Shown here piece after piece: positions 4,174 to 22,307 of a DNA stretch of 64,000 nt (its first letter is position 1; each line of letters opens with the position of its first letter). The DNA is from Betaproteobacteria bacterium (GTDB lineage: Bacteria > Pseudomonadota > Gammaproteobacteria > Burkholderiales > Rhodocyclaceae). Below the pieces are notes generated by a model. The model saw nothing but the letters and a program-made list of their open reading frames with translations, ran no database searches and had not been told where the DNA came from. The stretch lies in the NCBI GenBank assembly GCA_009777245.1, contig WRMF01000009.1, positions 1 to 64,000 on the forward strand. The letters run 5' to 3'. The position numbers and the translations under genes are program-made.

Positions 4174-5127
4174 TTATCCGATCAATGCTTGTCGTAAAGT
4201 CGCGCCTTCGATGATGGCGGACAATTTTTCGGCATATCTCGGGTCGGTGGCATAACCCGCTTGCTGCAATCTTCGAGCAAACTCCGTGCCATTCTGTGAA
4301 CCGATTACCGCCCCATATCGCGGGTTGTCCGCCAGAAGGCGCGCGTAGTCGGAAAAGGCTTCCGCGTAGGAATCGTAGGAGCGGAAACGCGCCTTCTCCT
4401 TCACCGGAACGCCGTCCACATATTCTGTAGTGGTAATTTCCGCGCTCTTGCCCTGCCATCCCCCGTGCGCCTTGATACCGAACAGGTTGTGCGAGGCGGA
4501 GCCGTCGGCATTTCTTATGTCGCGCTGCCCCCAGCCGGATTCCAGCGCGGCATGCGCGATCAAAAAGTGCGGCGGAATGCCGGTTTTGCGGCTGGCTTCG
4601 GCGGCATGCGGCCACATTGACCGCACAAATTCACGCGGCGTCAAATTCTCATTGTTGCCCTGGGGTTCCAACGGACTGACAGATGTTTGACGCGCTATTG
4701 ACGCTCGTTCCATCGCTGCCGCAAGGCTCTTGGGCGCAAACGGCAAAACTTCCACGCTCCTGGCGGCAATACTTGCAGGCCGGACATTGCCGATTTCTTC
4801 CTCCTGGCTGCTTTCATTCATCCGGCGGCTCAATTGTTCTTCCAGCATCCTTGCCAGACCCAGCCCGCCCTGCTTCGAGAGATTCTTTGCAAGCTGCTCA
4901 TCCAGCATTCCGGTAAAGAAACGGCTCGCGTCGCTATCCATAATACTGTCCTGATCCGTCGTCTCCCGCATGGATTTCAGCATGATTTGCAGGAACAACG
5001 CCTCGAATTGCTGCGCCGCTTCCCTGATGCCCGCTTCCCGATTTGTGCGTAGCTGCCCTTTCAAGCCGTGGATGCTTTGCACATCGGAAGCCAGCGTGTT
5101 GTCCGGCAAAATACTCTGGATAGCCAT
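4174..5127 (-). CDS. flgJ: Flagellar rod assembly protein / peptidoglycan hydrolase FlgJ
   Basis: FlgJ caps the growing rod and cuts the peptidoglycan so that the rod can pass. The N-terminal domain (about residues 20-105, with QFEALFLQIMLKSMRE) is the rod-binding/scaffold part. The C-terminal domain (about 165-315) is a beta-N-acetylglucosaminidase of the GH73 type, with the expected glutamate at residue 196 in LESGWG, followed by NLFGIKA and a YDSYAEAFSDYA segment. At 317 residues it is the full two-domain form. Its ATG overlaps the flgI stop (TGATG), which suggests translational coupling. Confidence 0.95.
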   Translation of the reverse strand: MAIQSILPDNTLASDVQSIHGLKGQLRTNREAGIREAAQQFEALFLQIMLKSMRETTDQDSIMDSDASRFFTGMLDEQLAKNLSKQGGLGLARMLEEQLSRRMNESSQEEEIGNVRPASIAARSVEVLPFAPKSLAAAMERASIARQTSVSPLEPQGNNENLTPREFVRSMWPHAAEASRKTGIPPHFLIAHAALESGWGQRDIRNADGSASHNLFGIKAHGGWQGKSAEITTTEYVDGVPVKEKARFRSYDSYAEAFSDYARLLADNPRYGAVIGSQNGTEFARRLQQAGYATDPRYAEKLSAIIEGATLRQALIG

Positions 5128-6200
5128 CAGATGATCTCCAGTTCAGCCCGCAACGCGCCCGCCGCCTTCATAGCCTGCAAAATCGCCAGCAAATCCTGCG
5201 GATTCGCGCCCAGGGAATTCAACGCCTGCACCACATCGGCAAGATTGACTCCTGCGTCGAGCGAAAGCAGGTTCGTGCCGTCTACCGCAAGCTGCACCCT
5301 GCCCACGCGACGCCCCATGCCTTCTTCAACCACTACGGAGAGATTGCCGTGCGCGATGGCGCAGGCTTCGATTGCCACCTTTTGATTCATCACCACCGAG
5401 CCGGTTCTGGGATTCATGACGACCTTTGCCTGCGCCGGAGAGGGCGTTACTTCCAGATTTTCCAGGCGTCCCATGAAGGACACCCGTGCGCTGGACGATT
5501 CCGGGGCAAATACCCTGAACTGGCGACCGTCTATCGCCTCTGCCGTGCCTGCGCCCATTTCCCGGTTGATGGTGTCCACCACCCGGCTTGCCAGATCAAA
5601 GTCCATCCGTCGCAATTCATAGGTGATGTATGTGCTCTGTCCGACCGGGGTAGGCACTGCGCGTTCCACCGTCGCCCCGCCCGGAATCCTTCCGGCGGAT
5701 AGGTGATTGACCTGCGCCTGCGCGCCCGGCGCGGTAGCGCCCATTCCGCCGATCAGCACATTGCCCTGGGCAATCGCGTAGGTTTGTCCGTCAATCCCTT
5801 TCAGGGGGGTCATGAGGAGCGTGCCGCCGCGCAAACTCTTGGCGTTGCCGATGGAGGACACAGTAACGTCAATGGTCTGACCGGGACGGGCAAAAGGCGG
5901 ATGATTGGCAGTCACCATGACCGCCGCCACGTTTTTTAACTGGATGCTGCGTATTTGATCCATCGGGACGTTCACTCCCATTTGCGACAGCATGTTGATT
6001 ACCGACTGGGAAGTGAAGGGCGTTTGTGTTGTCTGGTCGCCGCTGTTGTCAAGGCCGACCACCAGGCCGTAGCCGACAAGCTGGTTATCGCGCACCCCTT
6101 CGATGGACGCCAAATCTTTCAGACGCTCCGCGTTTGCCAGCGGCAAAAAGACCAGTAAGCAGAAAAGGGTAAAAAGGAAATTTTTGCCGCTTTTTTTCAT
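5127..6200 (-). CDS. flgI: Flagellar P-ring protein FlgI
   Basis: FlgI builds the periplasmic P ring around the rod. Typical blocks include RLKDLASIEGVRDNQL after the signal peptide, then LVVGLDNSGDQT and GRTGSVV-type sequence near residue 270. I start it at the ATG at 6200, which gives a clean signal peptide (MKKSGKNFLFTLF..., cleaved after ANA) and a GGA seven bases upstream. An ATG at 6212 and a TTG at 6218 are alternatives that add 4 or 6 residues. It follows flgH closely. The protein is about 357 residues, normal for the family. Confidence 0.95.
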   Translation of the reverse strand: MKKSGKNFLFTLFCLLVFLPLANAERLKDLASIEGVRDNQLVGYGLVVGLDNSGDQTTQTPFTSQSVINMLSQMGVNVPMDQIRSIQLKNVAAVMVTANHPPFARPGQTIDVTVSSIGNAKSLRGGTLLMTPLKGIDGQTYAIAQGNVLIGGMGATAPGAQAQVNHLSAGRIPGGATVERAVPTPVGQSTYITYELRRMDFDLASRVVDTINREMGAGTAEAIDGRQFRVFAPESSSARVSFMGRLENLEVTPSPAQAKVVMNPRTGSVVMNQKVAIEACAIAHGNLSVVVEEGMGRRVGRVQLAVDGTNLLSLDAGVNLADVVQALNSLGANPQDLLAILQAMKAAGALRAELEII

Positions 6201-10382: not shown

Positions 10383-10768
10383 TGATTTATGGCATCGGCA
10401 CGGACATAGCCGCGACCGCAAGGCTGGAGCGTTTGTTTGTCCGCCACGGCGAGGCGGCGCTGAAAAAAATTCTGACCCTTGCCGAGCAGGCGGAATTTCC
10501 GCAACGGGGTCTTGCGGCGCAGGGGCGTTTTCTGGCGCGGCGCTGGGCGGCGAAAGAAGCCTTTGCCAAGGCGCTAGGCACCGGGCTTTGTTATCCGGCA
10601 ACCTTGACCAACATTGCAGTCACGCATGACGAAGCCGGGCGTCCTTTCTTCGTGTTCGCGCCTGTCCTGACTGAACACCTTGCGAGCCTTGGCCTTACGG
10701 CGCATCTTTCCATCAGCGACGAAAAAGCCTATGCTCTGGCGTTTGTCGTTTTGGAGCGTGTATGTTGA
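10382..10768 (+). CDS. acpS: Holo-[acyl-carrier-protein] synthase AcpS
   Basis: AcpS transfers 4'-phosphopantetheine from CoA to the serine of acyl carrier protein. The 128-residue protein begins with IYGIGTDIAATARLE, where the aspartate of GTD binds Mg2+, and contains FLARRWAAKEAFAKALGTG with the second metal-binding Glu, then the C-terminal LSISDEKAYALAFV. Its stop codon lies inside the start of nagZ (7-base overlap), so it is probably translated from a shared pdxJ-acpS-nagZ message. Confidence 0.96.
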   Translation: MIYGIGTDIAATARLERLFVRHGEAALKKILTLAEQAEFPQRGLAAQGRFLARRWAAKEAFAKALGTGLCYPATLTNIAVTHDEAGRPFFVFAPVLTEHLASLGLTAHLSISDEKAYALAFVVLERVC

Positions 10769-11839: not shown

Positions 11840-12397
11840 ATGAAAGTTAAGGCAGTTTTGTTGATCTTGTGCGCTCTATCAACAGCTGGTGCGGAACAGA
11901 CGCAGCAGGTGGTGGAGATGCAGCCGGGTTTGTGGGAACTGCGCTTGTTGAAGATGGCAATGGATGGCGAAGACTGGTTGGAACAGCAGCGAGCAAAGAC
12001 GCGCACGGAGCAGGAACGCCAGATGCAATTGCCACCTGGGCAACGCCGACAAGTTAGAGATCCGCTGGTCTTTCGCTGGTGCGAGAGAGCTGGCGAGACA
12101 ATGCTTGATGAATGGCTAATTTCGCAAAATGTGTTGGGCAAGGATGATGAGTGTATGCCGCCCAAGGTGATCGGCAACGGCAAGCGGATAATGGCCGAGA
12201 GAATCTGCACAGGTTATACAATGAAAATAGAGACGGCAATGCCAAATAAAACAAACGTAGAGATGATTGTAACATTTGTATTTCCTGAACCTGGCGGATA
12301 CACGATGGTACAGGAGATGCACATGAAGTTTCTTGACAGCGACTGCGGTGGCGTTGCCCCGTTCAAACGTCCAACAAGCGGGGCGGGTATGCCGTGA
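11840..12397 (+). CDS. DUF3617-like exported protein
   Basis: A good ribosome site (GAAGGAGA) precedes the ATG at 11840. The 185-residue product has a signal peptide (MKVKAVLLILCALSTAGA) and then the DUF3617-like opening QQVVEMQPGLWELRL. Two spaced cysteines (in RWCERAGE and DDECMPPK) and a third in RICTGYTMKIETAM match the family habit of exported small beta proteins that start 'MQPGLWE'. Function unknown. It is the last chromosomal gene before the cassette array and is 433 bases from the first attC. Confidence 0.7.
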   Translation: MKVKAVLLILCALSTAGAEQTQQVVEMQPGLWELRLLKMAMDGEDWLEQQRAKTRTEQERQMQLPPGQRRQVRDPLVFRWCERAGETMLDEWLISQNVLGKDDECMPPKVIGNGKRIMAERICTGYTMKIETAMPNKTNVEMIVTFVFPEPGGYTMVQEMHMKFLDSDCGGVAPFKRPTSGAGMP

Positions 12398-12717
12398 TGG
12401 TTTTTTCATTCTATCCCATTGTGCCCCATCCAACCGTACAATAAGCAGCCCGATAGGTTGGGGTGAGCGAAACGCGAACCCCAACATGCCGCCCCCGGCA
12501 ACTGCTGCGTGCAGGGGTTCGCTGCGCTTGTCACCAACCTATAGGATACGGCCTTGCCGTCGTTACCAGCGGAAGCAAGAAATTAGCGACAGGCATTCAT
12601 GCCTGCCGTTCAAAACAAACAAGGAAGGGTTTTTTATCCCCTCCCTTGTGCTACGGTCGAAACCCCGGCCTTCAGGCTGGAGTTCCAACCTTCGCGCCGC
12701 CTGAAGGGCGGGGTTTC
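12398..12717. repeat. Repeat-filled spacer before the cassette array
   Basis: No gene is supported here. Around 12449-12550 there are two imperfect inverted copies of a motif beginning ATAGGTTGGGGTGAGCGAA, a layout like a small non-autonomous element. At 12588-12606 lies a short palindrome (GACAGGCATTCATGCCTG). At about 12660-12716 two arms (GAAACCCCGGCCTTCAGGC and the near-complement GCCTGAAGGGCGGGGTTTC) enclose about 20 bases, resembling a PATE or IS200/IS605-type end hairpin. The last arm abuts the truncated NIPSNAP fragment. Confidence 0.6.
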
Positions 12718-12819
12718 AAACTCAAGGAATTCGAGCACTACGGCAAACTCTGGATTCCACTCGTTGAGAAATTTGGCGGGAAACATCACAGGCGTTATGC
12801 TCCGCAAACTGCATACTGA
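12718..12819 (+). pseudogene. Fragment of a NIPSNAP-family gene
   Basis: A 33-codon stretch ending at a TGA reads KLKEFEHYGKLWIPLVEKFG and then GKHHRRYAPQ. This strongly resembles the N-terminal part of bacterial NIPSNAP-family proteins, where a 'KLxEFExYxxxWIPLVExFGGxHHGY' pattern is followed by about 70 more residues. The 5' end is cut exactly at the edge of the inverted-repeat element (12660-12716), and the 3' end drifts into unrelated sequence before the first attC. I call it a gene remnant, perhaps what is left of the first cassette. The assignment rests on memory of the family, not a search. Confidence 0.5.
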
Positions 12820-12830
12820 TTTGGCGCTGT

Positions 12831-12900
12831 GCCTGACTTTGCGCTCAAGCTGGACAGCCCCGCCTGCGGCGGGTCTGCCGCTTGGCTTTGAACGTTAGGC
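12831..12900 (+). other. attC site 1 (70-bp type)
   Basis: The left core is GCCTGAC and the right core is GTTAGGC. Inside, CAAGC..GGACAG pairs with CTGCCGCTTG around a CCCGCC-TGC-GGCGGG tip. It is nearly identical to the sites at 16736 and 22238. Confidence 0.85.
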
Positions 12901-12946
12901 AGCGCAGCCTTTCATGTAACGACGCAAACCCTTCGGAGATCAAAAC

Positions 12947-13333
12947 ATGAAACTTGGTTACACCATTCTTTACGTTGAAGATGTCGCCAAAACACTCGGG
13001 TTTTACGAGCAGGCTTTTGGATTGAAACGAAAGTTTTTGCATGAAAGTGGCGATTTCGGCGAACTGGACACAGGGAACACCGCGCTTGCATTTTCATCGC
13101 GCCGCCTGATGAAGCAACTGGGTAAAAATCCTTCTCCACCAGATAGCGAAGCGCCTTGCTTTGAAATCGCGCTGGTGACCGATGACGTTGCAGTTGCGCT
13201 CAAGCAGGCGATTCTGGCAGGCGCTCGTCTGGTGCAAGACGTCGAGGAAATGGCTTGGGGTCAAACGACCGCCTATGTCGCCGACCCTGATGGCTATCTC
13301 GTCGAAATATGCTCGCCGGTTATTGAGGATTAA
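12947..13333 (+). CDS. VOC-superfamily (glyoxalase/bleomycin-resistance-like) protein, cassette 1
   Basis: The 128-residue protein has the paired beta-alpha-beta-beta-beta pattern of vicinal-oxygen-chelate proteins: LGYTILYVEDVAKTLGFYEQAFG at the N-terminus and a second unit ending VADPDGYLVEICSP, with a Glu in the usual metal-ligand position. Members include glyoxalase I, antibiotic-binding and dioxygenase proteins, and the substrate here cannot be read. The gene starts 46 bases after the attC core and fills its cassette. VOC proteins are recurrent cargo of integron arrays, and a second one lies at 16320. Confidence 0.85.
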   Translation: MKLGYTILYVEDVAKTLGFYEQAFGLKRKFLHESGDFGELDTGNTALAFSSRRLMKQLGKNPSPPDSEAPCFEIALVTDDVAVALKQAILAGARLVQDVEEMAWGQTTAYVADPDGYLVEICSPVIED

Positions 13334-13372
13334 GGATCATATGTAGAAGTTCCAACTTGATCTGACAATCCT

Positions 13373-13446
13373 CGCTCCGGCAAGCGGAGGTGGTATACTT
13401 TGCGGATCGTGCGTTCGATTGAGCGTGTGTTCGGTTTCGCCAAGCG
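13373..13446 (+). promoter_or_regulatory. Conserved pre-attC module, copy A
   Basis: This 74-base stretch precedes attC 2 and recurs before five other 88-bp attC sites. It holds a small stem (CGCT..AGCG) and TGG-TATACT at 13391-13399, an extended -10-like box pointing to the next cassette. No -35 is evident. Confidence 0.45.
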
Positions 13447-13534
13447 TCCTAACAACATGTTCAACCCCGCTCCCTTCGGTCGCTGGACACCCAATCGCTG
13501 CGCGCTTGGGTGCCGGTTAACATAAACGTTAGGA
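13447..13534 (+). other. attC site 2 (88-bp type)
   Basis: The left core is TCCTAAC and the right core is GTTAGGA. The inner boxes TGTTCAACC and GGTTAACA pair, then ACCCAAT/GCTTGGGT-like arms continue the hairpin. Confidence 0.88.
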
Positions 13535-13579
13535 GGCACAGACTTCTCAAGACAGGCTGTCTATGTATAGTTAAACATC

Positions 13580-14071
13580 ATGGAACTCAAAGGCGCGCTC
13601 ACAAATCGAGACCTTCGCTCCGCAGCATGGCTGCATGTTGCGCCGCGCAAGGCATTTGCGTTCCTTGGGCTTCTTGTTCTTGCACTAGCGCTTTGGGCTT
13701 TATGGCTTGCCTTCTTCGGCTCAAAACAAGCCCCTAGCTGGAAGTGGGCGCTGTTGGCATTTCTTGTGTACTTGTTGGCGCACTACTCCCTTTATGTTCC
13801 GTATCGTCTGAGGCGCTACTTCCGCCAGTACAAAGCGCTTCAAAAAGAGCAATTTCTCTCCCCAACGGACATTGGCCTCATGGTATCAACCGAGAACGTA
13901 AAAGGAATAATTCCCTGGTCTGATTTGCTCCGCTGGAAAGAGAACAAGGTTCTCTTCATGCTCTACGTCGCCGACGACATGTACTACCTAGTTCCAAAGC
14001 GCTTCTTTGCAAATGCAGCGGACGTTCAGGAGTTTCGCGGTATTCTTCAAAGCAAGGTCACGTGCAAATGA
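13580..14071 (+). CDS. YcxB-like membrane protein, cassette 2
   Basis: The 163-residue protein has two adjoining hydrophobic segments (about residues 25-47 and 55-73), a short basic linker (YRLRRYFRQYKALQ), and then a cytoplasmic beta-rich tail: LMVSTENVKGIIPWSDLLRWKENKVLFML followed by YYLVPKRFFANAADVQEFRGIL. That tail matches the YcxB-like C-terminal domain seen in many small membrane proteins of unknown function. It is the only gene in its cassette and begins 45 bases after the core. Its operon partners, if any, depend on cassette order. Confidence 0.7.
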   Translation: MELKGALTNRDLRSAAWLHVAPRKAFAFLGLLVLALALWALWLAFFGSKQAPSWKWALLAFLVYLLAHYSLYVPYRLRRYFRQYKALQKEQFLSPTDIGLMVSTENVKGIIPWSDLLRWKENKVLFMLYVADDMYYLVPKRFFANAADVQEFRGILQSKVTCK

Positions 14072-14074
14072 CCC

Positions 14075-14098
14075 CTACCCTGCCATTCAACCCGGACG
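14075..14098 (+). other. Possible attC half-site relic
   Basis: Directly after the cassette 2 stop the sequence CCATTCAACCCGGACG occurs. It nearly equals the left half of attC 4 (14773-14788), but no matching right half follows; instead the conserved pre-attC module begins. It may be the scar of a replaced or fused attC. Confidence 0.4.
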
Positions 14099-14170
14099 CT
14101 CTGGCAAGCAGAGGTGATATTATTCGCGGGTCGTGCGTTCGGTTGGGCTTATGTTCGGTTTCGCCAAGCG
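14098..14170 (+). promoter_or_regulatory. Conserved pre-attC module, copy B
   Basis: This copy keeps GCGGGTCGTGCGTTCGGTTG and TTCGGTTTCGCCAAGC. Its -10-like box reads TGA-TATTAT (14115-14123), so the hexamer differs from copy A but stays close to TATAAT. Confidence 0.45.
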
Positions 14171-14258
14171 TCCTAACACCATGTTCAACCCCGCTCCCTT
14201 CGCTCGCTGGACACCCAATTGCTACGCGCTTGGGTGCCGGTTAACATAAACGTTAGGC
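14171..14258 (+). other. attC site 3 (88-bp type)
   Basis: TCCTAAC at the left and GTTAGGC at the right, with the TGTTCAACC/GGTTAACA inner boxes intact. It differs from attC 2 at a handful of bases. Confidence 0.88.
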
Positions 14259-14268
14259 TATTCAATCC

Positions 14269-14748
14269 ATGAGTTCCTTCATTCACATCGCGGATAAAAT
14301 CCAAGAGGCCGCCATCCGCAAGAACGGCCTTAAAATGGGACGCCGCAAGATTCGCGGCGTGTACGCAGTTCCCGTGGTTCCAGATTACGCGACTACTCAC
14401 CAGTGGGCACGCGAGCTGAAGCGGAGAGGTATGCAGGTATTAATCTGCGTTCAGTTTCGTATTCCGGATACGGAGATCGTCTGGGTCGGTCAATACAGTG
14501 GCGAAAAAATCCAAATGACTGCATCGGAAGCTGTGGCAAGCGTTCTTGAACACAGTGACCCAATGGGTCTTGAGGTACTCATCCCTCGCAAGGTTGCACC
14601 AAGCGAAATTACTCGTATCTATCCCGCCCCCAGGCTTGTCGGCTGGCGCTACTATCCTTCGGCAAAGGGCAAGAAGCCGTTCTGCCATTGTCGGTATTGC
14701 AATCGCGGTGAAATCCGCGCAAGTCGGTTAATTCGGGAGGAATCTTGA
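14269..14748 (+). CDS. Cassette 3 protein of unknown function
   Basis: The 159-residue protein is soluble, with no signal or membrane segment. It opens MSSFIHIADKIQEAAIRKNG, continues with GVYAVPVVPDY and THQWARELKRRG, and ends with a cysteine cluster (FCHCRYCNRGEIRASRL) that could bind a metal. The opening resembles a group of uncharacterised bacterial proteins with 'HIAD...GVF-MPVVP..-HQW-RELKRRG' blocks that I remember but cannot name. It begins 10 bases after the attC core with no strong ribosome site, a common trait of cassette genes. No activity is assigned. Confidence 0.75.
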   Translation: MSSFIHIADKIQEAAIRKNGLKMGRRKIRGVYAVPVVPDYATTHQWARELKRRGMQVLICVQFRIPDTEIVWVGQYSGEKIQMTASEAVASVLEHSDPMGLEVLIPRKVAPSEITRIYPAPRLVGWRYYPSAKGKKPFCHCRYCNRGEIRASRLIREES

Positions 14749-14761
14749 AAGGTCGCGTTTG

Positions 14762-14818
14762 GCCTAACATTGCATTCAACCCGGACGGCTTTGCCGTCGG
14801 TTAACTTTGGCGTTAGGT
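14762..14818 (+). other. attC site 4 (57-bp type)
   Basis: GCCTAAC on the left, GTTAGGT on the right, with the simple stem TTCAACCCG...CGGTTAAC and a GGCTTTGCC tip. It is the most canonical and shortest site of the array. Confidence 0.9.
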
Positions 14819-14854
14819 TCTACATCCAACCCGTTGCATCATAGGAGTACCGAA

Positions 14855-15265
14855 TTGAGCTGGGACGTGTTTCTCCATAAGTTCACGCGGCTGTATCGAA
14901 CCGTCGGGGAGATTCCGGACGACGAGCAGCCACTTCCTCTTGGTTCACTTTCCGAAGTGCAAGCGGCTATCTCAGCCATCTTTCCCGGAACTAACTGGAG
15001 CGATCCTGTATGGGGTGTCTACGACAGCAAACTTGGCTCAATCGAGTTCAATGTTGGGAGAGACGACCCTGTGCAATGCTTGGGGCTTCACGTACGAGCA
15101 AGTGACACTATTGTTGGTGGAATTCTCCATCTATGCGAGCGCATGGGCTGCCAAGCCATAGACTCGACAGACAGCACCTTCCTTGATCAGTCGGAACACC
15201 CGGCTTCTGGCTTGGAGAAATTGCGTAAGTACAGAGATCAAGTCATCGGGAAGAGTGGGGTCTAA
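14855..15265 (+). CDS. Cassette 4 protein of unknown function
   Basis: I place the start at the TTG at 14855, which has AGGAG seven bases upstream and gives MSWDVFLHKF. A start further upstream would begin inside attC 4. The 136-residue product shows SWDVF, IPDDEQPLPLGS, FPGTNWSDPVWGVYD, IEFNVGRDDPVQCLGLHVRAS and ILHLCERMGCQAIDS. This pattern recurs in uncharacterised bacterial proteins I recall but cannot name; some may be immunity-like. It is acidic and soluble. No enzyme motif is visible. Confidence 0.72.
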   Translation: MSWDVFLHKFTRLYRTVGEIPDDEQPLPLGSLSEVQAAISAIFPGTNWSDPVWGVYDSKLGSIEFNVGRDDPVQCLGLHVRASDTIVGGILHLCERMGCQAIDSTDSTFLDQSEHPASGLEKLRKYRDQVIGKSGV

Positions 15266-15289
15266 GCGTATGACTTCGCAACCGCATCC

Positions 15290-15363
15290 CGCTCTGGCAA
15301 GCAAAGGCGGTATAATTTGCGGGTCGTGCGTTCGGTTGAGCGTGAGTACGGTTTCGCCAAGCG
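15290..15363 (+). promoter_or_regulatory. Conserved pre-attC module, copy C
   Basis: The -10-like hexamer here is a consensus TATAAT (15311-15316). The preceding trinucleotide is CGG rather than TGN, so this copy lacks the extended element. Confidence 0.45.
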
Positions 15364-15448
15364 TCCTAACAACATGCTCAACCCCGCTCCCTTCGGTCGC
15401 TGGACAGTCCCGCTATAGCAGGTCTGCCGATTAGCATAAACGTTCGGT
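15364..15448 (+). other. attC site 5 (degenerate 88-bp type)
   Basis: The left half matches its relatives, but the right half has changed to CAGTCCCGCTATAGCAGGTC and GATTAGCA, and the right core reads GTTCGGT. A second GTTAAGG lies 16 bases later. Recombination through this site is likely impaired. Confidence 0.65.
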
Positions 15449-15468
15449 TGGCATAACGTTAAGGAACA

Positions 15469-16110
15469 ATGGAACTTACGTCGCTCTTCATAGCAACGCT
15501 CAAGCCCCTGCTGTGGCTCTTACCGCTGCTGATCGTTGTCGCCATTCTCAAGAGACCTTGGTTCAAGGGCACTATGGGAGAGCGCCGAGTCAAACGCCTA
15601 ATCGGGAGGCAACTGAACCCGTCTATTTATAGAGAGTTCTCGAACGTTACTGTACAAACCGATGATGGAACCACCCAGATCGACCACATCTACGTCTGTC
15701 CTTTCGGCGTTCTCGTGATCGAGACAAAGAATATGAGCGGTTGGATTTTCGGTGGAAGGAATCAAGCCCAGTGGACACAAACCATCTACCGGAAAAAGGT
15801 GAAATTTCAGAACCCACTGCGACAGAACTACCGCCACATCAAAGCGCTTGAGTCGCTGCTTGACCTTCCAACCGAGTGCTTCAAGTCTATTGTCGTTTTC
15901 GCTGGCAATTGCACGCTCAAAACAGAAATGCCAGACGAAGTCTGTAGAACTTCCGATCTTATCAAGTATATCTACTCAATTGACGCCCGGATATTTTCGG
16001 ATGCGCAGGTTGACGACATCTGCAACAAGATAATATCATTTCGACTTGAACCGACCCGGCAAGTCCATCGTGACCATGTTGAAAACCTCAAGCGTAGGCA
16101 TCGTGCGTAA
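15469..16110 (+). CDS. NERD-domain protein, cassette 5
   Basis: The 213-residue protein has one N-terminal membrane helix (LLWLLPLLIVVAIL, residues 13-26) followed by a NERD (nuclease-related) domain: GTMGERRVKRLIGRQL, then TTQIDHIYVCPFGVLVIETK, where D-E-x-K matches the restriction-endonuclease-like active site. NERD proteins are predicted nucleases whose targets are mostly unknown. The gene begins 5 bases after the second core-like motif downstream of degenerate attC 5. A membrane-tethered nuclease fits a defence or signalling role, but that is inference. Confidence 0.85.
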   Translation: MELTSLFIATLKPLLWLLPLLIVVAILKRPWFKGTMGERRVKRLIGRQLNPSIYREFSNVTVQTDDGTTQIDHIYVCPFGVLVIETKNMSGWIFGGRNQAQWTQTIYRKKVKFQNPLRQNYRHIKALESLLDLPTECFKSIVVFAGNCTLKTEMPDEVCRTSDLIKYIYSIDARIFSDAQVDDICNKIISFRLEPTRQVHRDHVENLKRRHRA

Positions 16111-16115
16111 CATCC

Positions 16116-16192
16116 CGCTCTGGCAGGCGGAGGTGGTATACTTTGCGGGTCGTGCGTTCGGTTGGGTTTGTGTTCGGCACTCCGCCCAGGCG
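16116..16192 (+). promoter_or_regulatory. Conserved pre-attC module, copy D
   Basis: TGG-TATACT at 16134-16142 is followed by TTGCGGGTCGTGCGTTCGG. The 3' part differs from other copies (CACTCCGCCCAGG in place of TTTCGCCAAG). Confidence 0.45.
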
Positions 16193-16280
16193 TCCTAACA
16201 CTATGCTCAACCCCGCTCCCTTCGGTCGCTGGACACCCAATCGCTACGCGCTTGGGTGCCGGTTAACATAAACGTTAGGC
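16193..16280 (+). other. attC site 6 (88-bp type)
   Basis: TCCTAAC left core, GTTAGGC right core. The left inner box reads TGCTCAACC, one base from attC 2, while GGTTAACA is kept. Confidence 0.88.
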
Positions 16281-16319
16281 AGCCAAACCACCGCATCAGC
16301 TTTCACCAAGGAGTCTCCA

Positions 16320-16709
16320 ATGCTTGTCCAGTCGCTATCCCCCTGCATCACCACTACCAAGGTGACGGAATCCCGCGATTTCTATGTGAAGCACTTTGGA
16401 GCCAAGGTCACATTCGATTGTGGCTGGTACGTTAATCTCGAATTTGGCAAGGGGGCTTCCCTCCAATTCATGACCCCGCAGCCCGATCATCCAGTCTGCA
16501 ATCCTGTCGGCTTGACGTACAACTTTTGCGTTGCAGATGTCGATGCTGAGTTTCAATTGCTTGCGGCTTCCGGTCTGGCTGCCCTCATGCCCTTGGAAGA
16601 TCATTCTTGGGGAGATCGCGGCTTCGCAGTTCAAGACCCAAACGGAGTTGTTCTGTATATCTACTCTGAACGGGAACCTGACCCCGAGTTCAAGCAGTAC
16701 TACAAATAA
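16320..16709 (+). CDS. VOC-superfamily protein, cassette 6
   Basis: A strong AAGGAG lies upstream of the ATG. The 129-residue protein has the two VOC repeats: SLSPCITTTKVTESRDFYVK and, in the second half, WGDRGFAVQDPNGVVLYIYS with the closing acidic ligand. The central NLEFGKGASLQFMTPQ supports a compact binding protein like those for bleomycin or fosfomycin, but the ligand is not predictable. It is clearly different in sequence from the VOC protein of cassette 1, so the two are separate acquisitions rather than a duplication. Confidence 0.85.
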   Translation: MLVQSLSPCITTTKVTESRDFYVKHFGAKVTFDCGWYVNLEFGKGASLQFMTPQPDHPVCNPVGLTYNFCVADVDAEFQLLAASGLAALMPLEDHSWGDRGFAVQDPNGVVLYIYSEREPDPEFKQYYK

Positions 16710-16735
16710 CACCATGCGCACCAAATTGGCACCAC

Positions 16736-16805
16736 GCCTAACTTTGCGCTCAAGCCGGACAGCCCCGCCTGCGGCGGGGCTGCCGCTTAGCTTTGAACGT
16801 TAGGA
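16736..16805 (+). other. attC site 7 (70-bp type)
   Basis: GCCTAAC left core (the intact form of the GCCTGAC seen at sites 1 and 10) and GTTAGGA right core, with the CCCCGCC-TGC-GGCGGGG tip. Confidence 0.9.
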
Positions 16806-16825
16806 AACACATCCCGGAGTCACCT

Positions 16826-17437
16826 ATGAAACTAGCACCCATTTCATTTCAGAATGTTGTAACCGCTGTTGCGACTTGCATTTCTGTCGTAGCTGTTTTC
16901 TTTTCTTGGCAGCTAGTCAAGGCTTCATGGCAGCAAGCTGAGATTTCAAGTCAGCAAGTCGAAATCACCCGAGATCACTATCGAAGGTCAGTAACTCCAA
17001 TTCTCAACGTAACCCCATATGCAGAAGGAAAGGGGCGTCGCAACGGAATCTACCTTTCAAACGATGGCCTCGGCCCTGCAATCATCAAAGAATTCTCAGT
17101 CAAATCAGGGAGCACTGTGGTTAGTGGCTTCGAGTCAGAACAATGGCATGATATACTGACGGCAGCGGACATAAATCCTGCTTGCTTTGAACTCGGTTGG
17201 CCTAGAGCTGATGCGGCAATCAGCGCTAGTGAAAAGGATCATGTTCTTTTATCTATCACGAAAGCAGAGGGTCACGACATTTGTTACCCAGAACTCATCA
17301 AGTTAATCGGTGATCAAAGTATCGACATTTCTATTCAATATGAGTCCATCTACGGAGAACCGAAGCGTGTTTTGGCAAGTTCAAAAATCAAGTCCAAAAC
17401 AGTAGATGCGTTACGCCGCCAGATCTTCGGAAAATGA
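16826..17437 (+). CDS. Membrane-anchored protein of unknown function, cassette 7
   Basis: The ATG at 16826 has CGGAG upstream and lies 20 bases after the attC core. An in-frame start at 16793 would overlap the attC. The 203-residue product begins with one membrane helix (VVTAVATCISVVAVFF, near residues 10-26), then a Gln-rich coiled-coil-like stretch (QQAEISSQQVEITRDHYRR) and a soluble beta-rich domain (TPILNVTPYAEG, IYLSNDGLGPAIIKEFSV). Such single-helix proteins with a 'NDGxGPAxI' domain are common hypotheticals in accessory DNA. Function unknown. Confidence 0.72.
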   Translation: MKLAPISFQNVVTAVATCISVVAVFFSWQLVKASWQQAEISSQQVEITRDHYRRSVTPILNVTPYAEGKGRRNGIYLSNDGLGPAIIKEFSVKSGSTVVSGFESEQWHDILTAADINPACFELGWPRADAAISASEKDHVLLSITKAEGHDICYPELIKLIGDQSIDISIQYESIYGEPKRVLASSKIKSKTVDALRRQIFGK

Positions 17438-17492
17438 CCCGTTCATTCTCTTGCGCTGCATCCGTTCAATGTTCGGCCTCGCGATCACATCC

Positions 17493-17566
17493 CGCTCCGG
17501 CAAGCGGAGGTGGTATGCTTTGTGGCTCGCGCGTTCGGTTGAGCGTGTGTTCTGTTTCGCCAAGTG
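17493..17566 (+). promoter_or_regulatory. Conserved pre-attC module, copy E
   Basis: The box reads TGG-TATGCT (17511-17519). Elsewhere the copy diverges by single bases (TGTGGCTCGCGCG for TGCGGGTCGTGCG). Confidence 0.42.
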
Positions 17567-17654
17567 TCCTAACAACATGTTCAACCTCGCTCCCTTCGGT
17601 CGCTGGACACCCAATCGCTTCGCGCTTGGGTGCCGGTTAACATAAACGTTAGGC
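17567..17654 (+). other. attC site 8 (88-bp type), left border of the restriction-modification cassette
   Basis: TCCTAAC left core and GTTAGGC right core with both inner boxes intact (TGTTCAACC, GGTTAACA). Confidence 0.88.
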
Positions 17655-17724
17655 TATGTACGAAGATCTGCTACCTTGGTTTTTAAGTGATAGCGGGTTG
17701 GCACGACCGAGGGGGCGGGTGCGA

Positions 17725-17761
17725 TTGACAGAACCTCCGAAATATTCGATAATCGAATATT
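17725..17761 (+). promoter_or_regulatory. Methyltransferase promoter overlapped by a perfect palindrome
   Basis: TTGACA (17725-17730) and GATAAT (17748-17753) are 17 bases apart, a near-consensus sigma-70 promoter. The -10 lies inside a perfect 21-base palindrome (17741-17761): arms AATATTCGAT and ATCGAATATT around one central A. A protein bound there would block the promoter. The predicted transcript start is near 17760, 24 bases before the methyltransferase ATG. Which protein binds (the cassette controller or the methyltransferase itself) is not shown by sequence. Confidence 0.75.
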
Positions 17762-17783
17762 ATCACTAGAGACTCGCTCCACA

Positions 17784-20120
17784 ATGAATCTCCAGCAAGC
17801 ATTAACGGATGAATTCGAAGGACTAATTGGATTCAGTGTAGATTTGCCGATCGAATACAGGCGGGTGTTTAAGGCTTTGTGCTGTCATCTGGCGAAACGC
17901 AAACTACGAACTCGTAGCGAACGTCGAAATATATTGATTTCACATATCAACTCGAAGTTTGATATCAACCGAGAGGGCATTGCTGCAGTTCTTGCTCGGG
18001 CAGCGTCCCGTGGGCTAGTCTTCAATTTTCATGAGAAAAACCTTATCCAGAGAGCGTTCGATTTGCGCGATAAGGCAGCTTTTGCAGATGCTGTCAGGAA
18101 GGCAAGAAACGATCACGGTCTCCATAGTTTACTTTGCCAGCTCTTTACTCCCGCCACCGAAGAGGAAACACTCGCTCATTTTCGAGCAGAAGTCACGAAT
18201 CCATCAAGACTTCGCGTGGAAAAGGGAGTGCGCCCGATAGGTAATGAAATTCTTCTTTCTGCACTGTCCGCGTTTGTTTTTTCTGCAGCAGATGAAGAGG
18301 TAATGCATGAATTCTTCGATTCCGCATACAGCCATGAAAGATACGAGCGGTCTTTCTGGCTGCAGTTGAGAAAGCTACAACCACAGTTCTACTCGCGAAC
18401 GAGGACACTGGATATTGCTAAGGTTGACCAAAATTTTGCCGATTCGTGCGGCTCACTTGAAACGCTGCGATTAATTCTATTCGGCCAGACGGCATTGAGC
18501 TATAAGATGCTCGAAAATCACGGGTATTTAGCCTATTGGATAGAACCGCTAGTTATTGACGGACGAAATGTAACATGGGAAATTTGCTCCGACATCATGC
18601 TTTTTGCTGAAAAGCATGATGAGGTAATGCTCACCAACACATACTTTAAAACCAGCCAAATCAAAGCCGAGACCGTCTCTTACGTAAACGGCATTGATGA
18701 GTCTAATGCCCGATTTGACCTTGCAAATGAAGGGTTTACATACAAAGACATATTTGTCTGCATTCCCTCGACTGGCTCTCTTGTCGGCTCTGAGTCGCTT
18801 CTACTTCTTTTTCAAAAGAACAAGAGGGACGAAACATTAATCCCATGCCCTGCATGCAGAACGCACAATGTTCAAGGAAATTCCTACCCGAGCTTGGGTG
18901 TACGCAGTTGGGAGTGTCGAAATATTCTTTGCCCGGATAGAAGCAAATACAATCGAGGAAAGCGATATTCGTTTAAATCCTTGCTGATGCAGGAAGCTAT
19001 TGATGAGATAGAGAGCCAAATTTCACCAGAGTCGATTCGAAGATGGTCGCGAGACATTCAGATTGGTCGCACAGCTGACGATGCCGTCGAAATGTTAATT
19101 CGCCATTATTCATTGCATGGAGATGGGGTATATCTTTTTGGTATCAATGATCCGAATGACTCGCTAGGCCGTCGAATTGTGCGACACGAAGATATTATGA
19201 CTACCGAAGAGAACCTCGCATCGTGCTTCTTCGACTCGCATTGGTTCAAGAGGTATGCATTTTCTTCGGACGTAGGAGGGCGGGAGAACGCCAGTAGTAT
19301 CAATCAATGCTGCATTGGTTCCTTGACTATGGTTCACGGCGACTCATGTACAGTGCTCGAAGGATTTCCGGATAACTATTTCGATGGAGCAGTGACTTCC
19401 CCTCCCTATTTCAACGCACGAGAGTATTCTCAATGGTCGAACATCTATTGCTATTTGCACGACATGCTCTCTATTGCAAAGAGTTGCTTTAGAGTCCTCA
19501 AACCAGGGGCAACATATCTTTATAATATTTTCGACTACTTCGACAATGAGCGCAGTATTGTTTTTTCAGCCATGGGCGAGAAACGTCTAGTACTAAGTGC
19601 CTACACTGCGGACTTGTTCCGACGTGTAGGATTTCAGCTGGCCGGAGCCATAACTTGGGATAAAGGTGAAATCGAAGGAAAACGTGGGTTCAATGCTGGT
19701 AATTTTTCACCATATTATCAGGCTCCATTTAATTGCTGGGAACATATTCTCGTATTTGTAAAACCGCCGACGGATATGGCACAGAGAGTACTGAGCAACA
19801 TGCCAGCAGTCCTCCGTGCTCAACCAGTGAACAAAATGGTAAAGGGCAAGAATACACACGGCCACACCGCACCTTTCCCGGCGGATATTCCAAATCTCTT
19901 ACGTCCCTTCTTGCCAAAAGGGGGGAGAGTACTAGATCCCTTTGGAGGAAGCGGCACAACTGCTCGTGCGCTCGATGGCTTCGTGAGCGAGACGATCTGT
20001 ATCGAGAAGAAGAAGGAGTATTTTGACCTCGCTCTTAATCTCTTTATGTCCTATCGTAGCGCACTGAATCAGGGAACACATCAGGCGATTCTATCCAGAG
20101 AGGAAATCGTTGGCGCATGA
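17784..20120 (+). CDS. Site-specific DNA methyltransferase, beta class (probably m4C or m6A), cassette 8
   Basis: The 778-residue protein is modular. The first 340 residues match nothing I know. A zinc-ribbon-like region follows (CPAC at 355-358 and C378/C383). The catalytic domain is C-terminal: motif IV TSPPY (538-542) comes before the AdoMet-binding motif DPFGGSGTT (718-726), the order of beta-class amino-methyltransferases; TSPPY favours N4-cytosine but does not prove it. ETICIEKKKEYFDLA after motif I is typical. It converges on the HNH gene with a 40-base tail-to-tail overlap. Base composition is lower in G+C than the flanking chromosome, pointing to foreign origin. Confidence 0.88.
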   Translation: MNLQQALTDEFEGLIGFSVDLPIEYRRVFKALCCHLAKRKLRTRSERRNILISHINSKFDINREGIAAVLARAASRGLVFNFHEKNLIQRAFDLRDKAAFADAVRKARNDHGLHSLLCQLFTPATEEETLAHFRAEVTNPSRLRVEKGVRPIGNEILLSALSAFVFSAADEEVMHEFFDSAYSHERYERSFWLQLRKLQPQFYSRTRTLDIAKVDQNFADSCGSLETLRLILFGQTALSYKMLENHGYLAYWIEPLVIDGRNVTWEICSDIMLFAEKHDEVMLTNTYFKTSQIKAETVSYVNGIDESNARFDLANEGFTYKDIFVCIPSTGSLVGSESLLLLFQKNKRDETLIPCPACRTHNVQGNSYPSLGVRSWECRNILCPDRSKYNRGKRYSFKSLLMQEAIDEIESQISPESIRRWSRDIQIGRTADDAVEMLIRHYSLHGDGVYLFGINDPNDSLGRRIVRHEDIMTTEENLASCFFDSHWFKRYAFSSDVGGRENASSINQCCIGSLTMVHGDSCTVLEGFPDNYFDGAVTSPPYFNAREYSQWSNIYCYLHDMLSIAKSCFRVLKPGATYLYNIFDYFDNERSIVFSAMGEKRLVLSAYTADLFRRVGFQLAGAITWDKGEIEGKRGFNAGNFSPYYQAPFNCWEHILVFVKPPTDMAQRVLSNMPAVLRAQPVNKMVKGKNTHGHTAPFPADIPNLLRPFLPKGGRVLDPFGGSGTTARALDGFVSETICIEKKKEYFDLALNLFMSYRSALNQGTHQAILSREEIVGA

Positions 20121-20938
20121 GAGTATTTGCTGCCAGGCTCAATTTCATATAAACCGATTTGCTGGAGCCATCTAGCCATTGCCCAAGCTTCTTCAAATCT
20201 AATGTTCGCCATCGTGAGACCATACTCACGACAAAGGTTATGAAAACATCTGTAATTGCTAGGTCGATGCACAAACAAAAGCCACATAAGACCAGCTTCA
20301 GCAGTCAGGAATGTCAGTCCACCGTTTGCGTGCGAAGGTCTGCGGATAACATTGTGTCTTCTGCATCGAAGAATCATGTTGTCCAGGCGGTCGGCAACAT
20401 CTTCAAGGTCTTTCTGAGTACGTATACTTCCAGACGTTAGTGCGTTATATAAATCCCCCGAAATATTATCCAGGAGTTGCGCCTGTACGCCTGTGTAGTT
20501 GTGCCGATTAAGTAGGCCTACCAATCTCGCCTTAATTTCGGCCACAATGCGTGCGCAGTCTTGCCGAACCAAGTCTGGAATCTCTTTTTGCACAGATAAA
20601 CCCACGTCTCCAACAAACTCTTTCGGAATTACGTGGTCAGCCTGCAGGTCTACGCGAGTACCGCAATCAGCGCATTTTCCATTTTGCATAAAATGCCAGG
20701 TACGCACTGCTTCCCAGCATTTTCGGGGTGGAAAGTGGCGTTGAAATGATTTTTTGGACGCTATTGAGGTGCCAACCTGAGACGGATTAAGGTTTCCCAA
20801 AGTGGTCGCTGTTACCTCTCGCCAAGATATTATCCCTTCTTCAATAAGCTCCTCAAGGAACATTTGCCAGTGCTCCTCTGTCCAATCGGCTCCGTTTGCC
20901 GGATATTCAGAAGCATGCTGTTCTCCCTCACCAGTCAT
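20081..20938 (-). CDS. HNH-type endonuclease, presumed restriction enzyme of the cassette
   Basis: The 285-residue protein (ATG at 20938, MTGEGEQH) contains an HNH nuclease core: CADCGTRVDLQADHVIPKEF (Cys89, Cys92, Asp101-His102) and NMILRCRRHN (Cys192, His195), a zinc-supported beta-beta-alpha metal fold. The N-terminal part (DWTEEHWQMFLEELIEEGIISW) may recognise DNA or form the dimer. Its start overlaps the controller stop by 11 bases, so the two are read from one transcript. Placement between a controller and a methyltransferase makes restriction the natural role; the target site is unknown. The frame is open 34 codons further upstream inside the controller, but MTGEGE is the better start. 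Confidence 0.82.
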   Translation of the reverse strand: MTGEGEQHASEYPANGADWTEEHWQMFLEELIEEGIISWREVTATTLGNLNPSQVGTSIASKKSFQRHFPPRKCWEAVRTWHFMQNGKCADCGTRVDLQADHVIPKEFVGDVGLSVQKEIPDLVRQDCARIVAEIKARLVGLLNRHNYTGVQAQLLDNISGDLYNALTSGSIRTQKDLEDVADRLDNMILRCRRHNVIRRPSHANGGLTFLTAEAGLMWLLFVHRPSNYRCFHNLCREYGLTMANIRFEEAWAMARWLQQIGLYEIEPGSKYSHAPTISSLDRIA

Positions 20939-21203
20939 TCGATGTCTCCTCGGTGTGTCCTTCGAGAGTTGCTTCAAATTTCGAAACAAATTCAGATAAG
21001 CCAATACCCAAAGCAGCACAGAAAATGCGGAGTTCAGCAACGTCTAGTCGTCTTTCCCGACGCTCAATCTTGCTTATCAGAGACTGCTCGACACCCAGCC
21101 GCGTAGCCAACTCGACTTGAGTAAGGCCAGCCTCTTTCCGCGCTGTGCGCAGCAATGAGACGAGCGCCGAGTAATCATCGCTGTGTAGGGGAATTGGAAT
21201 CAT
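20928..21203 (-). CDS. XRE-family controller (C) protein of the restriction-modification cassette
   Basis: The 91-residue protein is almost entirely a Cro/CI-type helix-turn-helix domain: LVSLLRTARKEAGLTQVELA, then TRLGVEQSLISKIERRERRL and DVAELRIFCAALGIGLSEFV. This size and fold match the C proteins that delay nuclease expression until methylation is complete. I start it at the ATG at 21203 (MIPIPLHS). A longer frame to 21320 would run across the presumed operator. It is co-directional and overlapping with the HNH gene, the classic C-R arrangement. Confidence 0.85.
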   Translation of the reverse strand: MIPIPLHSDDYSALVSLLRTARKEAGLTQVELATRLGVEQSLISKIERRERRLDVAELRIFCAALGIGLSEFVSKFEATLEGHTEETSNDW

Positions 21204-21244
21204 TTTGCTAAGATAAAGCCGATTTTTGAATATGCCAAAATCGA
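21203..21244 (-). promoter_or_regulatory. Controller-gene promoter with operator-like inverted repeat
   Basis: Reading the minus strand, TATCTT lies six bases before the controller ATG, so a transcript would start at or next to the ATG and be leaderless, as reported for several C-protein genes. Just upstream, arms CGATTTT and AAAATCG (21220-21243, plus strand) flank a 10-base centre with GAATAT, a plausible binding site for the controller. Confidence 0.5.
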
Positions 21245-21536
21245 CTATTATTGCCATTCGAAACGCGGACTCGTTGGTCTTGTGTCTTGCGCACAAGCGG
21301 ACGGCCTGCGACCGGCGCATACCTTGTACGCAAGATATTCAAGTTATCACATCTCAGACGTTGACCGCTTACCCGATGAGGTCGTTCCAATGACCTACAA
21401 GGATGGCCTCCTTCAACACCCTGCTGGCTTCACAGTGACTCTCGGCAAAACATCCGGCAACCTCTCCGGCGGGAGAGTCGAACACAAGCGTGTTAGCGAG
21501 TTTACTGTAGAGGAGAGGAGAAAAAACATTCCAAGA
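21245..21536 (+). other. Right part of the restriction-modification cassette, no convincing gene
   Basis: A GTG-initiated frame from 21282 runs through attC 9 to 21686 and includes DVDRLPDEVVPMTYKDG and HPAGFTVTLGKTSG, which look protein-like. It has no ribosome site and ends in attC-derived sequence. It could be the remains of an earlier cassette. Confidence 0.3.
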
Positions 21537-21612
21537 TCGACTGGTAAGCGAAAGCGGTATACTTTACGGATTGCGCGTTCGGTTGGCCTTGTACCTGAGC
21601 ACTACCCATGTG
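21537..21612 (+). promoter_or_regulatory. Conserved pre-attC module, copy F (diverged)
   Basis: TATACT at 21558-21563 is kept, with GCGCGTTCGGTTG after it. The remainder (CCTTGTACCTGAGCACTACCC) departs from the other five copies. Confidence 0.4.
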
Positions 21613-21700
21613 TCACAACAACATGTTCAACCCCGCTCCCTTCGCTCGCTGGACATCCAATCGCTTCGCGCTTGGGTGCCGGTTAACATAAACGTTAGGT
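21613..21700 (+). other. attC site 9 (88-bp type), right border of the restriction-modification cassette
   Basis: The left core is altered to TCACAAC, whereas the rest (TGTTCAACC, GGTTAACA, right core GTTAGGT) is intact. Confidence 0.82.
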
Positions 21701-21718
21701 CACCAGAAAAACCCCAGT

Positions 21719-22243
21719 ATGCATATTTCAACAAATCTTCCGGGTTGCGTTCTTCGCTCATGGCGGCCTGAGGACAAAGCTGCCCTGCTGCTGCACGCCA
21801 ACAATCGCAATATCTGGCGCAACCTCACCGAGATGTTCCCGCATCCATACACTGAAACCAACGCGGTTCAGTGGCTCTCTATCGCATCGAGTCCCGGTAC
21901 CAGCATTTATCTAGCCATTGAGGTCGGCGGTGAGGCTGTTGGTGGCATTGGCATCATCGCAGGCACAGGCATCGGCCAGTACACCGGCCAGTTTGGCTAT
22001 TGGTTGGGTGAGTCATTGTGGGGCAGAGGTATCGCTACAGCATCGGCCAGTGCCTTGGCAACACATGCACTTGCTCAACCGCAGTTCGTGCGTCTCGAAG
22101 CGCCTGTGTTTGCCTGGAATCCTGCTTCCATGCGAGTGCTGGAAAAAGTTGGCTTCATCAGAGAAGGCGTCCTGCGCAGGAGCGTATTCAAAGATGGGCA
22201 ACTTATTGACAATGTTATGTATGCCAAAGTACGCGATGCCTGA
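21719..22243 (+). CDS. GNAT-family N-acetyltransferase (RimJ/RimL type), cassette 9
   Basis: The 174-residue protein has the GNAT order of motifs: LRSWRPEDKAALLLHANN at the N-terminus, YLAIEVGGEAVGGIGI, GYWLGESLWGRGIATASASA (the acetyl-CoA pyrophosphate loop RGIATA), LEAPVFAWNPASMRVLEKVG and FIREGVLRRSVFKDGQ. This is the RimJ/RimL branch, which acetylates protein N-termini or small molecules including some drugs; the substrate is unknown. The stop codon falls within the left core of attC 10, as is common for tightly packed cassettes. Confidence 0.9.
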   Translation: MHISTNLPGCVLRSWRPEDKAALLLHANNRNIWRNLTEMFPHPYTETNAVQWLSIASSPGTSIYLAIEVGGEAVGGIGIIAGTGIGQYTGQFGYWLGESLWGRGIATASASALATHALAQPQFVRLEAPVFAWNPASMRVLEKVGFIREGVLRRSVFKDGQLIDNVMYAKVRDA

Positions 22244-22307
22244 CTTTGCGCTCAAGCCGGACAGACCCGCCTGCGGCGGGTTTGCCGCTTGGCTTTGAAC
22301 GTTAGTT
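22238..22307 (+). other. attC site 10 (70-bp type), end of the array
   Basis: The left core is GCCTGAC. The right core reads GTTAGTT, departing from consensus at the outermost bases, as expected where the last cassette joins non-integron DNA. The mfd ATG follows after two bases. Confidence 0.82.

Follow-up and report, generated by a model that had tools for sequence, protein, structure and literature searches.

The first 64,000 nt of contig WRMF01000009.1, from the betaproteobacterial genome assembly GCA_009777245.1 (here G000; 2.15 Mb in 43 contigs, 93.3% complete), are referred to below as the window and carry an array of integron gene cassettes at positions 12831–22307. The array lies between nagZ and mfd, directly 5' of mfd (both gene names were assigned by reading), and comprises ten attC recombination sites, all on the plus strand, that bound nine cassettes (Table 1). 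Three sites are 70 bp long, five 88 bp, one (the fifth) 85 bp and one 57 bp. In outline this is an ordinary cluster of attC sites lacking an integron integrase (CALIN), and its composition is unusual, most of the cassettes being composites with one promoter-like gene-less cassette.

The positions of the ten sites and nine cassettes had been proposed in a sequence-only reading of the window, and were borne out by a scanner for R and L boxes, by placement by eye and by folding of the bottom strands. The same reading had listed three attC classes of 70, 88 and 57 bp with six sites of 88 bp; the three classes hold, whereas the count has to be corrected to five sites of 88 bp plus one of 85 bp. The scanner recovered eight of the ten sites on the plus strand, together with one false site (13360–13419) and two duplicate choices of R'; 10 Markov-simulated versions of the 64-kb window, scanned on both strands, gave 0–5 calls. 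The ninth and tenth sites, which have degenerate R boxes and were missed by the scanner, were placed by eye. The expected bottom-strand hairpins were better than 200 shuffles per site for eight of the ten sites (z from −2.3 to −4.8), with an extra unpaired base in the L arm in most of the folds, whereas those of the fifth and ninth sites did not differ from their 200 shuffles. The R arms were unpaired in the folds of the ninth and tenth sites. Given these weak folds and unpaired R arms, some of the attC sites in the array may be poor substrates. By eye, the stretch at about 12717–12790, 5' of the first attC, resembles the terminal part of a further gene that is broken, which makes a left-truncated tenth cassette likely. 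An Rfam scan of the array gave nothing near the gathering score.

Six of the attC sites lie within a 161-nt repeat that consists of the attC plus ~75 nt upstream, the extra sequence occupying 70–135 nt before each site. This extra sequence (the tail) corresponds to the 3' portion of a gene-less cassette of ~250 bp (the element). G017, the sister species, has two copies of the element in tandem, and the window genome has one, next to attI. A 172-position profile of the element gave 42 matches in 29 sequences (348,777 bases): 11 complete gene-less cassettes, 28 copies truncated at the 5' end, one split piece and two unclear cases. A search with the tail alone of 395 genomes from the family yielded 31 that passed E 0.01. 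The convincing carriers among them are G000 and G017 (one genus), five g95 genomes, one g99 genome and, more weakly, one g11 genome (E 5e-8); the remaining 22 of the 31, at E 7.8e-4 or worse, look like chance. The gene-less element thus occurs in at least three genera. An exact tail pattern matched six named contigs, one of them a Burkholderiales metagenome-assembled genome, and the isolate names of five of the six, in the style of a termite-gut series of such genomes (PMC7024585), indicate that the habitat is probably the termite gut. There was no match to the repeat in plasmid, phage and viral collections.

In 21 loci, all 15 of the scanner's 88-type sites (77–88 bp) are preceded by the element: five in the window, two in L051 (contig C28 of G000), three in L053 (a locus of G017), one each in L054, L055 and L066, and two in L098. 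The tail precedes 57/61- and 70-type sites as well as those of the 88-type. The 88-bp class is the attC of the gene-less cassette, and it dominates in the window because many gene cassettes end in the 3' part of that cassette. Before 61-bp attC sites, and behind decayed attC, another family of short gene-less tails (TTTTATTTTTTACCGCAACCGAG..CATGGTTACTGCCTA) was observed (L098, about 4975–5030 and 5925–5980; L100, near 4900).

The truncated copies begin at model positions 20–104 and are joined there to unrelated sequence. In 22 of the 28 an open reading frame (ORF) of at least 60 aa ends nearby, and in 20 its stop codon lies −30 to +50 nt from the junction; the six without a nearby ORF end include a tRNA cassette and the restriction-modification cassette of the window. 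The R''-like sequence TAAC stands at the junction in 9/28, vs 7.7% of random windows, and at several junctions a 5' attC half is left. The unfused order, an intact attC followed by a full element, is seen in L098, L099, L064, L100 and L053. Truncated elements joined to genes, nine of them with an R'' remnant, are what is seen in fused cassettes, and the fusion of gene cassettes to the gene-less cassette is well supported by these arrangements. The simplest account would be deletions, occurring repeatedly, that start in the attC of a gene cassette and reach into the gene-less cassette that follows it, in the manner reported for rare fused cassettes (PMC4670013): the gene cassette would lose its own attC wholly or partly and join the 3' part of its downstream neighbour, which would supply the only working attC (88-bp class) of the composite.

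The tRNA cassette of L053 (8940–9026, minus strand) is a tRNA-Ile (GAT) by ARAGORN, with a long class-II-like variable arm and an Rfam tRNA score of 48.6 bits; it is likewise fused to the gene-less element.

Two candidate functions of the element were rejected. A small protein is contradicted by the lack of codon-position bias (differences per codon position.179/.191/.200), the 11 complete copies showing no coding signature. A structured RNA was dismissed on the consensus fold of 31 tail copies (three of 34 were left out and some starts trimmed), which has 13 pairs, one of them with a two-sided change.

About 55 nt before R'' the tails carry an extended −10 pattern, TGnTATnnT, in which G-14, A-11 and T-7 are each conserved in 31/31 copies and T-12 in 30/31, the commonest base at position −9 being shared by 19/31. 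Such a pattern of conserved positions with a variable inner position is that of sigma-70 −10 boxes. No junction lies past model position 104, just before the −10 motif, which is where the shortest copy starts; tails of 45 nt would be detected in 35/36 simulated cases. If junctions were uniform over positions 20–127, all 28 would fall at or before 104 with a probability of about 0.001 (calculated by hand), and since junctions are not uniform this limit is only suggestive. Gene-less cassettes with sense promoter activity have been described in Vibrio (PMC11014356). The element is a dispersed family and most likely acts as an extended −10 promoter pointing to the next cassette.

In L098, an intact intI (462.8 bits) and attI are followed by a strict alternation of element (E) and gene cassettes (O), E-O-E-O-E-O-E-O-E; with five elements and four gene cassettes, and the element first, this is 1 of 126 orders. 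In one of these elements the attC is decayed and is followed by another short tail. In G431, G272 and G117 the cassette next to attI is a gene cassette that carries the element as a fusion, and altogether the element is in the first cassette at five of six readable attI sites (G431, G272, G117, L098 and C28 of G000), the exception being G017.

We consider it fairly probable that the array is a CALIN of composites in which a promoter-cassette family, fused to gene cassettes, forms a relay of promoters. Such an array would repeat the order gene, promoter, attC along its length, and cassettes far from the integron's cassette promoter (Pc), or without a Pc as in the window array, would be transcribed. 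Several observations weigh against this account. No −35 was found at the element, other positions of the element are equally conserved, and a scan for consensus promoters (hexamer pairs) gave 7 sites vs 8.9 expected, none of them the −10s of the element; promoters of gene-less cassettes are described as not predictable in silico (PMC11014356). The alternation is confined to one array, L053 having a tandem pair of elements and L064 just one element. TAAC is absent from 19/28 junctions, and all junction positions, which come from local alignment, may be off by about 10 nt. Finally, searches with two cassette proteins, each against 390 genomes, did not find the same gene in both fused and unfused states and returned distant relatives only; the YcxB-like relatives in two other genera are flanked by attC-like repeats that, by eye, are of another type.

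That the tail always abuts R'' and is kept to at least 68 nt before it, and that bearers of the element occupy the first position at five of the six attI sites, would also agree with an accessory recombination sequence that raises the use of the adjacent attC, so that its bearers accumulate close to attI and are over-represented throughout. We regard this as unlikely: the tail is found with three attC architectures, many attC sites of these arrays are without it, and its invariant positions fit an extended −10. Known recombination at attC, moreover, needs only the folded R-L-L-R site. The tail and attC might otherwise be a cassette-birth unit, a preformed module joined by genes that lack an attC, with the gene-less cassette as the module without a gene. 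The stop codons lying −30 to +50 nt from the junction in 20/28 and the many junctions near model positions 84–97 speak for such a unit, and the origin of cassettes is discussed as unsettled in PMC8352920. It seems improbable to us nonetheless, because the R''-like TAAC at nine junctions and the 5' attC halves at several imply that the gene was already a cassette before joining, and unfused neighbours are common. An ordinary CALIN whose repeat is a functionless, neutral 3' sequence spread by inter-array recombination would suit the commonness of CALINs (PMC12444791) and the decay expected after the apparent loss of the integrase, and is nevertheless a poor prospect given that the element is conserved across genera despite differing junctions and that three motif positions are invariant in 31/31 copies.

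Returning to the relay of promoters, its setting is an array without an integrase. The window array has at least two close attC sites, does not combine the intI, attI and Pc of a complete integron, and no integron integrase was found in the 93.3% complete genome: TIGR02249 gave four matches, the best with 73.7 bits vs a cut-off of 265, which we take to be XerC/D. The proposal that the array is a CALIN, made on the proviso that intI was not elsewhere in the genome, therefore stands. The genome's integrase appears to have been lost. The cut-off is passed by 6/20 genomes of the genus, and intI above it is present in G417, G431, G272 and G117; the intI frame of G017 is broken by a ~100-bp insert with inverted ends (L053, about 12130–12220, minus strand) plus one TAG. 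A search of the window genome for other arrays, which the sequence-only reading had recommended, revealed two more that lack an integrase, on C28 and C11. C28 has an attI-like and Pc-like stretch adjoining its cassette array, with no intI; 63 nt of it share 76% identity with the attI region of G017. A ~250-bp sequence with inverted ends interrupts a 57-type attC on C28 (L051, about 10455–10700). The array on C11 (L052, 7140–8110, minus strand), the third without an integrase, has two cassettes and lies directly upstream of an ilvD-like gene, named by eye and presumably ilvD. Xanthomonas integrons are likewise described as located at ilvD (PMC12444791).

The coexistence of three attC classes had been taken as the sign of a mosaic from at least three sources. 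This is not supported, in view of G017, in which 57-, 88- and 70-type sites stand together beside its own intI and all three classes recur in the orthologous array at mfd. Because both G017 arrays carry all three, the mixture is the ordinary cassette pool of the lineage. The G017 array at mfd occupies the same place and has five sites; its last GNAT cassette and last attC are the same as in the window, the middle cassettes differ, and the first 197 residues of mfd are 99% identical. In G016 and G007, the two more distant congeners with upstream DNA read, nagZ continues directly into mfd. The shared site in G017 and the uninterrupted nagZ–mfd order in these two indicate that nagZ and mfd were parted by the array in an ancestor shared by G000 and G017, and that the content of the array has turned over since. 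The left boundary of the array in G017 reads ...CGAAG/TTAGGC and the right one G/TTAGTTTTATG (slashes mark the boundaries). These boundaries would fit a first cassette brought in by an integrase at a site other than attI. The CALIN would have been seeded in trans, directly in front of mfd, at a time before the two species split. The gene mfd itself would be expressed from inside the array.

The cassettes of the window array and the copies of the element in them are listed in Table 1. The eighth cassette seems to hold a whole type II-like restriction-modification system. For its presumed endonuclease, on the minus strand, Pfam gave no match and the PDB none that was convincing; by eye it reads as HNH-like.

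Table 1. Sites, cassettes and element copies of the array in the window (HTH, helix-turn-helix; z, bottom-strand fold against shuffles)
Feature	Position	Strand	Description
attC 1	12831..12900	+	70-bp class, R'' GCCTGAC; z −3.24
attC 2	13447..13534	+	88-bp class; z −4.66
attC 3	14171..14258	+	88-bp class; z −2.48
attC 4	14762..14818	+	57-bp class; z −2.50
attC 5	15364..15448	+	88-type, 85 bp, R' GTTCGGT; z −0.72, weak
attC 6	16193..16280	+	88-bp class; z −4.44
attC 7	16736..16805	+	70-bp class; z −4.50
attC 8	17567..17654	+	88-bp class; z −4.79
attC 9	21613..21700	+	88-type, degenerate R'' (TCACAAC); z −0.61, weak
attC 10	22238..22307	+	70-bp class, R' GTTAGTT; two bases 5' of mfd ATG (22310); z −2.32
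Cassette 1	12895..13528	+	VOC/glyoxalase-fold protein 12947–13333
Cassette 2	13529..14252	+	YcxB-like protein 13580–14071
Cassette 3	14253..14812	+	Protein 14269–14748, no Pfam match
Cassette 4	14813..15442	+	ORF listed 14807–15265, true start within cassette; no Pfam match
Cassette 5	15443..16274	+	NERD-domain protein 15469–16110
Cassette 6	16275..16799	+	VOC/glyoxalase-fold protein 16320–16709
Cassette 7	16800..17648	+	Protein ending at 17437, no Pfam match
Cassette 8	17649..21694	+	4 kb; type II-like DNA methyltransferase (+, 17784–20120)
Cassette 8, putative endonuclease	about 20081..20938	−	
Cassette 8, HTH regulator	20928..21320	−	
Cassette 9	21695..22301	+	GNAT acetyltransferase 21719–22243; also in orthologous G017 array
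Truncated element	13371..13453	+	Model 90–172, after cassette 1 gene; −10-like TATACT 13394–13399
Truncated element	14097..14177	+	Model 92–172; preceded by apparent 5' half of 57-type attC; −10-like TATTAT 14118–14123
Truncated element	15285..15370	+	After cassette 4 gene; −10-like TATAAT 15311–15316
Truncated element	16107..16199	+	Joined at cassette 5 gene stop codon (GCGTAAC); −10-like TATACT 16137–16142
Longest element copy in window	17434..17573	+	Joined at cassette 7 gene stop codon; −10-like TATGCT 17514–17519
Diverged truncated element	21541..21614	+	After restriction-modification cassette; −10-like TATACT 21558–21563
Second tail subtype (GTTATGCTCCGCAAACTG...)	12790..12837	+	Before attC 1; also in G017

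We offer, tentatively and as somewhat less than an even prospect, the broader view that a gut betaproteobacterial lineage has made its arrays chains of self-expressing cassettes: a promoter family would have been repeatedly fused to the 3' ends of unrelated gene cassettes, each carrying the promoter of the next, which would free arrays from Pc and keep integrase-less arrays expressed. The array touches two questions, the expression of cassettes far from Pc and the way in which cassettes gain an attC, and one dispersed family in complete, truncated and fused states, with many junctions, makes both testable; the junctions record how composite cassettes arise. There is also a warning here, in that the dominant attC class of an array may stem from one hitch-hiking cassette and not from the origin of the array.

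Among known systems, insertion at attG sites (Loot et al., 2024, as cited in PMC12901181 and PMC12444791) is matched by the outer boundaries of the array, which fit one cassette at a non-attI site; an identical empty site for an insertion of this type was not found, and we infer the insertion. Like the CALINs described in PMC12444791, the array has at least two attC sites without intI and a chromosomal place common to sister species; unlike them, it is dominated by composite cassettes and abuts mfd, parting it from nagZ. A gene-less cassette family fused to gene cassettes was not found in the open-licence literature searched, in which the one paper linking integrons with termites concerned Treponema. 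The promoter cassettes of the Vibrio superintegron (Blanco et al., 2024; PMC11014356) are similarly short and gene-less, with a proposed sense drive of downstream cassettes. They are described there as separate, differing cassettes with activity shown by experiment, whereas the element of the window is one family across genera, fused into gene cassettes, whose activity we deduce from its sequence. The fused cassettes of class 1 integrons (Fonseca and Vicente; PMC4670013) share with the composites the partial or complete loss of the first attC, of which sometimes a few core bases are left. In that description the pair moves as one cassette, and such fusions are rare and join gene to gene, whereas cassettes of the window array are most commonly fused to a gene-less one.

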